Below, one piece after another: positions 26,843 to 55,145 of a stretch of 64,000 nt of DNA. Below the pieces are notes generated by a model, which was not told the origin of the DNA, searched no databases, and saw only the letters and a list, made by a program, of their open reading frames with translations. The DNA is taken from the NCBI RefSeq assembly GCF_000719115.1, contig NZ_JOEA01000003.1, positions 1-64,000 of the forward strand. Reading direction: 5' to 3'. This DNA comes from Lentzea albidocapillata (GTDB lineage Bacteria > Actinomycetota > Actinomycetes > Mycobacteriales > Pseudonocardiaceae). The first letter of the stretch is position 1. Each line of letters opens with the position of its first letter. A program made the position numbers and the translations under genes.

Positions 26843-27040
26843 TCATTCCGCGGCCATGCGCTCGCGCAGGCTGCGCGGCCTCATGTCGGTCCACACCTCG
26901 TCCACGTGGGCGGAGCACTCTTCTTTGGTGCCACGGAACCCGTCGGGGCGCCATCCCGCGGGCACCTCGTGCGTCGCGGGCCAGAGCGAGTACTGCTCCT
27001 CGTCGTTGAACAGGACCTGGTACTCGATGTCGTCCCTCAT
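26843..27040 (-). CDS. MbtH-like NRPS chaperone
   Basis: A 65-residue protein matching the MbtH signature: FNDEEQYSLWP (NxExQxSLWP), VPAGW and WTDMRPRSL. MbtH proteins bind the N-subdomain of adenylation domains and are needed for folding or activity of many actinomycete NRPSs. ATG 27040 lies inside the MFS stop (ATGA overlap). It is the last gene of the PBP-TE / NRPS-B / NRPS-A / MFS / mbtH chain. It should serve the seven complete A domains here. The two conserved Trp residues expected in the family are present. Confidence 0.95.
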   Translation of the reverse strand: MRDDIEYQVLFNDEEQYSLWPATHEVPAGWRPDGFRGTKEECSAHVDEVWTDMRPRSLRERMAAE

Positions 27041-28242
27041 GCCATGACGTCCTTTCGTGGATATGCGCGGAGAACGGGATGCGCGGTGACCAGCACCGTG
27101 ATGACCGCGATGCCGCCCGCGCACAGCAGCACCGCGCCTGATCCGGGGAGCAGTTCGGCGAGCACGCCGCCCAGCGCGGGGCCCAGGGCGGCGGCCGTGC
27201 CGAGGGCGACGTTCATGACGCCGCTCATTCGGCCGCGCAACGAGTCGGGCGTGCGCAGCAGCTGGTAGGTGGTGATCACCGTGTTGGCGGTGGGCGCGAG
27301 CAGTGCCATGCCGGCGAACAGCGCGCCCATCAGGTAGCCGTTGGAGATGAACACGGCCAGCGGCGCCAGAAGGGTCAGCGCCCAGAACACGCCGGCGATC
27401 GCCTGGTGTGGCGACAGCAACGCACTCAGTCGTGGGGCGATCAACGCTCCCACCACACCGCCGGCACCGAGCATCGCGGCCATCACGCCGATCTCGCCCA
27501 ACGGCACGCCACGTGACTGCGCCAGCACGATGATCACCAGGTAGTACGCGCTGAAGAACAGGTTGAGCGTCATCGCGCACCACGCCGTCACGCGCATCTC
27601 CGGCCTGCCCAGCACCCACTTCAGGCCATCGAGCAGTTCGCGGACGAAGTGCCGGCGCTCGGCCGGCGGTGAAGGCGGTACCCGCAGGAAGAGCAGGCCC
27701 ACGAACGCCAGCGCGTGCGTCAGGGCGTCGACCGCGAACGGCACCCAGCGGCCGACCGCCACGAGGAAGCCGCCCAGCGCGGTGCCCGCCATCTGCCCGA
27801 CGGACGACCGTGCGGCGTTGAGCGACACGGCGGTGGCGAGCTGCGACTCCGGCACGATCCGCGGCAGGCTCGCGTCCTCGGCGGGTTCGAAGAGCGCCCG
27901 GCAGGCGCCCAGCACTGCGGCCACGGCCACCATGTGCGGCAGGGTCGCGGCGCCTTGCCACAACGCCACCGCGAGGCTGGCCACCGCGACCGCCTGCGCC
28001 GCCTCCGACCAGAGCATGACCCGCCGGCGGTTCCAGCGGTCGGCCAGCACGCCGCCGGGCAGCCCGACGAGGAGCTGGGCCACCGCGTCCACGGCGAGCA
28101 CGAGGCCCGATGCCGCCGCCGAGCCGGTGACCATCAGCACGACCAGCGGGAAGGCGATGAGGGAGGCGTTGAAGCCCACCTCGGACACCGCCTGGCTGGC
28201 CCACAACAACCTGTAGTTCCGGTTGCGCGACAACGGGGTCAT
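27037..28242 (-). CDS. MFS exporter of the NRPS operon
   Basis: A 401-residue, 12-helix major facilitator of the MFS_3 / EntS-like type. It has [20 protein letters not shown] at the N-terminus, motif A as [13 protein letters not shown] between helices 2 and 3, and a long acidic-basic loop ([13 protein letters not shown]) in the middle. This subfamily includes siderophore and peptide exporters. ATGA overlaps join it to NRPS-A upstream and mbtH downstream, so it is made in step with the synthetase and is the likely exporter of the peptide, possibly giving self-protection (inference). Confidence 0.9.
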
Positions 28243-53821: not shown

Positions 53822-53870
53822 GACGGGGAGGCGCCTTTCCGGGGGATCAGTCGGAAGGGTGAGGGAATGA

Positions 53871-55145
53871 TCAGGCGACGCGGCGGGCGAGCCTGCCGCC
53901 CACCTGCAACCACCCGATGTCGCGGCCGGGGGAACCGCGCAGAAAACGTCCGGCTTGCGAAGTGTCACCGGTGTCGACGTCGCGCATTCGGAACCGCAGT
54001 CCGTCGTAGAGCGTCAACTCGGCGAACGGCTCACCGTCCACGACGAGTCGCAGCGGCGCATTCTCGCCCGGCACCACTGAATACTCGGTGTCGCCGTTGT
54101 AGAAACGTCCCACGCAGCCCGGTGGCGTCGCCACCACCCGTTCCCCCAGCTCACGACAACCGTCGTAGTCACCGACGCCGAGCGCGCGAGCCAATTCGTG
54201 CCACATCGCCAATCCGGTGCTGCCATTGGTCGTGAGCGCGACCACGGCACCGCTTTCCGGATGCACGCGCAGGTGGCAGGACGTGCCGTCCCCGGTGCCG
54301 TCGTGGCCGAACCACCCGCCCTCGAACAACGCCACGCCGAGCCCCCAAGCATCGGCCATCCCGAACGGCTCCGCACCGTCCATGGGAGTCCGCATCTCCC
54401 GCAGTTGGGCGTCGTCCACGAGCGTCGGCCCCTCGCCGGCGAGCATCCGGCCGAGCCGCACGAGATCGATCGCACTGGCCGCGACGGCGCCGGCGGGCGC
54501 GTCCACGAGCGTGAGCGACTGGTGCACCGGCACGACCCGGTGCCGTTCGGCATTGACCGCGTGCCCCGGCACCGAGTCGTTCTGTCCGTCCGGCGCCACC
54601 ACGAAGTGCGCCTCCACGCCCAGAGGCCGCAGCAACACCGACGACATGGCCTCCCACCAGCTCATACCGGTGACGACCTCGATCAAATGCCCGGCGGCGC
54701 TGTATCCGATGTTCGAGTAGGAGAACCCGTCACCGGGCTCGTGCAACGGGTTGGCGCGGAGCAGGCACTCGGCCACGTGCTTGCTCAACGTAGACGCCGT
54801 GACCTCGTCCGAATCGGACGGCAGACCACCGGTGTGGCTCAACAGGTGCCGGACGGTGAGCCGCTCGCTCAGACTCGCGGCAGCGGGCAGGTACTCGGCG
54901 AGCGGCTCGTCGAGATCAAGATCCCCGTCCGACACGAGGATCATCGCCAGCGCCGCGGTGAAGGTCTTGCTGACCGACCCCACCGGCACGCGCGCGGCCC
55001 GCGTCATCGGCGGCCCGCCCGTGTGCTGGACGCCGAACTCGACCGAGCGGGTAATTCCGCCGCGGTGCACGGCGAGTTGGGCGCCCGGAATCAGATGGTG
55101 TCTGGAGTGTCTTTCCAACAATGGCTGGAGCTGGACTTCGTGCAT
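53871..55145 (-). CDS. PBP-type thioesterase / serine hydrolase (candidate trans-acting peptide cyclase)
   Basis: 424 residues of the class C beta-lactamase/DD-peptidase fold: SVSK (S57-K60), YSN (143-145) and HDG (281-283) as the three catalytic motifs. A ~110-residue beta-rich C-terminal domain (lipocalin-like in such enzymes) follows. No signal peptide or membrane helix is present, so it is cytoplasmic, unlike true penicillin-binding proteins. Start ATG 55145 has GAGGG just upstream; the earlier ATG at 55190 lacks a site. It is 49 bp before NRPS-B and first in the operon. In surugamide-, desotamide- and mannopeptimycin-type clusters such enzymes (SurE, MppK) release and head-to-tail cyclise peptides ending in a D-residue from NRPSs without TE. 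That matches the terminal E domain here. Confidence 0.85.

Follow-up and report, generated by a model that had tools for sequence, protein, structure and literature searches.

The minus strand of the window, the whole 64,000-nucleotide stretch of Lentzea albidocapillata DNA that was analysed, carries five genes in tandem between positions 26,843 and 55,145. The first (55145-53871) encodes a PBP-type thioesterase/cyclase of 424 residues counted from its ATG; the 439-aa open reading frame (ORF) that holds it matches PF00144 with an E value of 7e-56. Next come two nonribosomal peptide synthetases: NRPS-A (53821-46322; 2,499 aa from the start of database entry P0001, the ORF itself opening at 53968), which contains three carriers, and NRPS-B (46307-28239; 6,022 aa), which contains modules 4 to 8, has epimerase (E) domains in modules 4, 6, and 8, and is without a thioesterase (TE). 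An MFS exporter (28242-27037; PF07690/PF05977) and a 65-residue MbtH-like protein (27040-26843; PF03621, matched in the ORF 28330-26843) complete the operon. The original prediction of eight carriers over two NRPSs, with an epimerase as the last domain, is borne out by a domain scan. The absence of a thioesterase, also claimed there, agrees with a PF00975 search of the organism's own genome (E <= 1e-3), which finds 14 places, none of them inside the window; the closest on the same contig is C3:100448.

Several plus-strand ORFs surround the operon. A large protein with Trans_reg_C, NB-ARC, and TPR matches (21331-23868), encoded about 3 kb beyond the last operon gene, is a possible pathway regulator. 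Between it and the operon lies a gene for a predicted 354-aa protein (25663-26730) with four matches to the cold-shock domain (PF00313, E 8e-74), an unusual number for one bacterial protein. The operon is also flanked on both sides by mobile-element-like ORFs, one integrase-like (rve_3, 24948-25550) and one resembling an IS110 transposase (56091-56546).

To obtain the domain order of both synthetases, the window was scanned with models made from its own domains; all domains lie on the minus strand. With A for adenylation, T for carrier, and C for condensation domains, NRPS-A reads A1-T1-C2-[A stub]-T2-E2-C3-A3-T3, and NRPS-B reads C4-A4-T4-E4-C5-A5-T5-C6-A6-T6-E6-C7-A7-T7-C8-A8-T8-E8. Module 2 has no complete A domain, so that the eight carriers are matched by only seven. 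The specificity code of A1 (52448-53818), DALLIGAVVK, is identical to that of A8 (29727-31115). The others are DVWHLSLVDK for A3 (46613-47959), DTWDMGFVDK for A4 (43533-44906), DTWDMGYVDK for A5 (39594-40943), DTLDTGFVDK for A6 (36702-38066), and DFWNIGMVHK for A7 (32715-34106). The ten code positions presumably follow GrsA numbering, and the tenth letter (K) was written in rather than read from the sequence. We take the A3 code to read Ser and the A7 code to read Thr; the type DALL[IV]GAVVK would probably specify an aliphatic residue, though this is a guess. No paper was found in the open-licence literature for 12 code strings of the DALL and DTxD types, and the beginnings DALL, DTWD, and DTLD are absent from the accessible part of PMC12283262.

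The first gene had been described as a cytoplasmic hydrolase with SxxK, YxN, and HDG motifs, and more specifically as a SurE-type PBP-like thioesterase. The catalytic motifs SVSK, YSN, and HDG are indeed present, and no hydrophobic N-terminal segment was seen by crude hydropathy. Against all PDB sequences, the best matches are SurE (6ksu, E 7.9e-66; query residues 9-422 against residues 34-470 of a 471-residue chain) and Ulm16 (8fek, 8.7e-61). The third is IS11 (3.1e-27), and the first DD-carboxypeptidase follows at 1.4e-19; this ranking does not place the hydrolase with exported DD-peptidases, the outcome named in advance as speaking against the idea. The C-terminal lipocalin-like domain is recognised by sequence only, through the near full-length alignment to SurE. 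A tree of 94 rows splits, at support 100/100, into 81 rows that include SurE and Ulm16 and 13 other serine hydrolases of Lentzea; SurE and Ulm16 are represented in it by their matched stretches only, the outgroup is these 13 hydrolases rather than solved DD-peptidases, and a long-branch warning applies. Eight duplicates, nine loci that were broken or on short contigs, and matches shorter than 300 residues had been left out beforehand. The window cyclase falls in a 20-row group (100/95) made up of four Lentzea, nine Saccharothrix-type, two Allokutzneria, four Actinokineospora, and one Actinophytocola sequences, a supported clade different from that of SurE and Ulm16. Together, the database ranking and the tree support the assignment of the hydrolase to the PBP-type cyclases.

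The genetic setting is also familiar. The hydrolase is a stand-alone gene adjoining a TE-less NRPS that ends in an E domain, and the available part of PMC11735501 describes the same arrangement for SurE (surugamide), Ulm16, PenA, WolJ, and FlkO. Lines released by PBP-type thioesterases lack E in module 1 and have E in the last module, as the window line does (PMC11735501, in part). According to the same portion of that source, SurE requires a D-residue at the C-terminus, with a preference for neutral, aliphatic, or aromatic side chains. The terminal epimerase E8 (28248-29450, a domain model match) and the A8 code, if aliphatic, would fit this preference. The window NRPS differs from the SurE/Ulm16-type lines by its A-less module, of which no example is named in the part of PMC11735501 that was seen.

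In place of the second A domain, NRPS-A retains a remnant (50756-50989) consisting of the C-terminal A subdomain only, with the A10 Lys loop deleted. In the interval between C2 and T2, about 80 residues are matched by an A model of 465 positions, over its positions 369-448, and the catalytic core is absent. An alignment of 14 clusters reveals that the stub keeps a segment R(V/I)RG.R(V/A)D...VE, which we take to resemble the A8 motif (a core motif, not the domain of module 8). At the place of A10, the stub has (L/I)(D/N)R..LP..P instead of NGK, presumably the A10 motif, and the loop is gone in all 14 aligned clusters. An AlphaFold model of C2-stub-T2 is poor, with a mean pLDDT of 56.

The missing A domain is a shared trait. 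When 390 family genomes were queried with the stub (best 11 candidates per genome scored; match cut-off E <= 1e-15), at least 54 genomes gave a match, and among these best candidates a frame of NRPS-A size (2,196-2,706 aa) occurred in 28. Module 2 is A-less in every one of the 28, which were checked in batches of 14, ten, and four. They are four Lentzea (G000, G017, G019, G020), 22 genomes of genus g8, taken as Saccharothrix, and two of g9, taken as Allokutzneria. The scan covered, in addition to these 28, seven of the stub matches in larger frames, and all seven have complete A domains. Stub and cyclase are both missing, at the cut-offs used, from three more g8 genomes (G080, G089, G091). A second set of 65 loci, reached through the cyclase, added nine A-less records: four Actinokineospora and one each from Actinophytocola, Kibdelosporangium, "Rhodococcus rhodnii", Planotetraspora, and a Thermomonosporaceae metagenome-assembled genome (MAG). 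None of these nine retains a stub; a linker of 14-50 residues connects C2 to T2. In total, 37 genomes or records have an A-less module 2.

An MFS homologue is present in all 20 A-less clusters that were fetched to their end, and an MbtH homologue in 18 of them (missing from G104 and G106). The same five NRPS-B modules recur in the fully read lines of G390, G392, G394, G395, G396, and G106. Module 3 also lacks its A domain in Allokutzneria, Planotetraspora, and the Thermomonosporaceae MAG; in A. pegani A3 is missing and A2 is present. Four near lines (G011, G006, L055, G398) have an intact A2 with the code DAYWWGGTFK, which differs from that of A1, so the ancestral residue 2 was probably unlike residue 1. 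The A2 code is DVFSVA[IL]VYK in a second line of G020 and in a Streptomyces line (L049). On the cyclase tree, A2 status requires three changes over 51 rows and A3 status three over 50. This tree speaks against a single origin of the A2 loss: one A2-less clade is rejected with p-AU 0.0081, but this value is for a group named after the tree was seen and for a tree with long branches. As a separate observation, the A codes at positions 3, 5, and 7 vary among the g8, g9, and Actinokineospora relatives, and the domain order is constant; A7, for example, is either Thr-type or DALLVGAVVK, and A5 is either DTWD-type or DAYWWGGTFK.

Given that misassembly can affect repetitive NRPS genes, the gap might be thought an assembly error or a recent pseudogene. 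This is refuted by the conservation of the lesion, which is the same in 28 of 28 family genomes, includes loss of the A10 loop in 14 of 14 aligned clusters, and has no stop inside the match; such an artefact has practically no chance of being the explanation. The A domain of module 2 is lost for good. Its absence could instead mean that the module is bypassed and that the line makes a heptapeptide. The domains around the stub, however, look intact. C2 (50993-52174; HHIITDG), T2 (50486-50695; LGGDSI), and E2 (49322-50443; HHLVVDG) have intact motifs in the window, and the corresponding HHxxxDG, LGGDS, and HHxxxDG motifs are intact in 14 of 14 clusters. Among 14 further lines, no A-less module listed has a damaged C or T motif. 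Thirteen of these lines have an A-less module 2, and the E motif is seen in 12 of them; the exception is L044, in which two model matches each cover a part of the E domain. In four genome pairs, pN/pS for C2, stub, T2, and E2 is at most 0.41, and in three pairs it lies within the spread of the other domains: 0.17, 0.22, 0.16, and 0.26 for G000-G020 (all domains 0.09-0.41); 0.34, 0.29, 0.23, and 0.33 for G079-G090 (0.13-0.39); and 0.23, 0.28, 0.05, and 0.33 for G095-G088 (0.05-0.66), in which T2 is the lowest of all. In the closest pair, G000-G017, the values are 0.26, 0.40, 0.41, and 0.33, with stub and T2 the two highest. The condensation domains are informative as well. C2 is LCL-like by its similarity to C4, C6, and C8 (47-50% identity). 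C3 (48059-49255) is DCL-like by similarity, being 27% identical to C2 but 53% to C5 and 50% to C7, both of which come after E domains; this likeness would be expected if C3 takes a D-residue from module 2. Because the motifs are kept, pN/pS is low, and C3 is DCL-like, skipping of module 2 is very improbable.

If module 2 is used, T2 must be charged by an A domain from elsewhere, and A1 is the most likely to load both T1 (52217-52423; LGGDS) and T2. With its C and T motifs intact and its A domain missing, module 2 has the make-up seen in CmnA-A1-type sharing. Wherever an A-less line was read as far as the position of A1, this domain is present, and its code is DALL[IV]GAVVK in 14 of 14 clusters and DALLTGSVVK in Planotetraspora and the Thermomonosporaceae MAG. 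In lines without both A2 and A3, A1 is the sole A domain of NRPS-A; because A3 is absent from some of the A-less lines, it cannot serve all of them as loader. Neither T-domain similarity nor a tree of T-E regions gives any sign that A1 and T2 are partners. The mean identity of T2 is 48% to T1, 69% to T4 (its nearest), and 63% to T8, with T3 and T1 at 49%, and in the tree the E domains cluster mainly according to their place in the line rather than their substrate. A1 ranks first and A8 second as T2 loader because A1 lies on the same chain, is present throughout, and has a near-uniform code, and A8 shares the code type. Alternatively, a different A domain of the line could charge T2 across the two proteins; A8 on NRPS-B would be the likeliest, but this is a minority possibility. 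The DALL[IV]GAVVK code of A8 occurs in 14 of 14 clusters and in six other full A-less lines (G106, G390, G392, G394, G395, G396), and T2 is closer to T8 than to T1, though T2, T4, T6, and T8 all precede E domains. Nevertheless, A8 belongs to another protein and lies six modules further down the line, whereas A1 shares a chain with T2 and is the only A domain left on NRPS-A where A2 and A3 are both missing.

A stand-alone or foreign A domain encoded elsewhere, perhaps embedded in another NRPS, could also charge T2 in trans, a prospect slightly dimmer than that of A8. Several A-less modules work in this way (PMC8949500 and PMC7539972, as far as these were available), and Lentzea genomes carry stand-alone A domains; those of the organism's own genome include C1, C18, C2a, C2b, and weaker ones. 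No A-domain ORF shorter than 1,500 aa, however, was found near 20 A-less clusters, within flanks of about 2-8 kb in most and longer in the Lentzea ones, except for a 421-aa ORF in G019 (locus L040, with an odd code) and a 26-bit match in G090. Thus, within these short flanks, a dedicated stand-alone A(-T) gene is not a feature of the 20 clusters. The strongest stand-alone A domain of the own genome (C1:164793-166268, code about DAFFMGCTFK by eye) is closely matched in G017 (88%) and G020 (86%), two of the three other cluster-bearing Lentzea, but its distribution makes it an unlikely loader. Among the matches listed for 29 genomes, it also has 82-87% relatives in six Lentzea without the cluster and reaches at most about 46% in G019; among matches listed, it reaches at most 48% in nine Saccharothrix-type and two Allokutzneria genomes, the values for G019 and these genomes spanning 40-48%. 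Finally, G079, which carries the cluster and whose genome is 90% complete, has 22 A-domain places (E <= 1e-60), none in an open frame shorter than 839 aa; its two smallest frames, 839 and 946 aa, are under the cut-off used for the family, and an open frame can exceed its gene. Short A-domain frames are present in G085, G103, and G395.

Loading by A1 would have a close precedent. In capreomycin biosynthesis, CmnA-A1 loads the A-less CmnI in E. coli and in vitro, so that there too the line's first A domain serves a C and T module without an A of its own, with an MbtH protein involved; CmnI, however, is a separate protein, whereas the Lentzea module lies inside the starter NRPS, is followed by E, and retains an A stub (PMC12400406, in the part available). 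Syringomycin (SyrE/SyrB1), ramoplanin, and WS9326A likewise have an elongation module without a working A domain, but they use a dedicated stand-alone A-T gene, and none stands beside the Lentzea-type clusters bar the two weak exceptions (PMC8949500 and PMC7539972, in part). The accessible portion of PMC12400406 names the yersiniabactin and fungal SidD/Nps6 synthetases. Their products and modes of release are unrelated to those of the Lentzea line, and the fungal ones belong to another kingdom. In these synthetases one A domain serves more than one carrier. PBP-type cyclases and A-domain sharing are each already known, and this lineage would combine both. No paper joining an A-less module to a PBP-type cyclase was found in the open-licence literature, including the parts seen of PMC8400726, PMC8399532, and PMC7459860, which is weak evidence because only open-licence papers were covered. 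A limited search of the same literature found no described peptide matching the predicted product.

Taken together, it is very likely that the cluster builds an eight-residue ring released by the stand-alone PBP-like cyclase. The eight-carrier line would make a linear peptide that begins with an L and ends with a D residue, and the cyclase would take the peptide from T8 and close it head to tail. In module 2, from which A is gone and in which C, T, and E look intact, T2 would receive its amino acid from an A domain elsewhere in the line, most likely from A1, which is part of the same protein. This explanation as a whole is somewhat better than an even proposition. The predicted product is cyclo(X1, D-X2, Ser, D-B, B, D-B, Thr, D-X8), where X1, X2, and X8 would be the same residue (code DALL[IV]GAVVK) and B stands for the residues of DTxD-type codes. 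The original prediction, cyclo(X, D-?, Ser, D-aa, aa, D-aa, Thr, D-X), holds for its D/L pattern and, as the codes are read, presumably for Ser 3 and Thr 7, but its residue "D-?" is not selected by its own module, since module 2 has no A domain.

The natural lines suggest how this state may have arisen. They can be arranged from an intact A domain, through a C-terminal stub without the catalytic loop, to a direct C-T fusion. That one starter A domain feeds T1 and T2, and three carriers where A3 is gone, with redundant A domains lost in stages, seems to us about evenly balanced. If so, the number of copies of one residue could be predicted: three in Lentzea, four in the Actinokineospora lines G390, G394, and G395, and five in Allokutzneria. 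Intact, stub, and fused modules in relatives make A-domain sharing testable by comparison, and natural C-T fusions are useful to NRPS engineering. Collinear product prediction fails for lines with an A-less module 2.

Two further observations concern the related loci. Other Lentzea lines also stand beside a PBP-type cyclase, at G011:C110 (L178, L179), G006:C9 (L180, L181), and G020:C34 (L182, L183); these have nine or ten carriers and a complete A2. The record L060, labelled Rhodococcus rhodnii NRRL B-16535, comes from a 12.4 Mb genome, and its cyclase and modules are very close to those of Kibdelosporangium aridum (L051); the label looks wrong.
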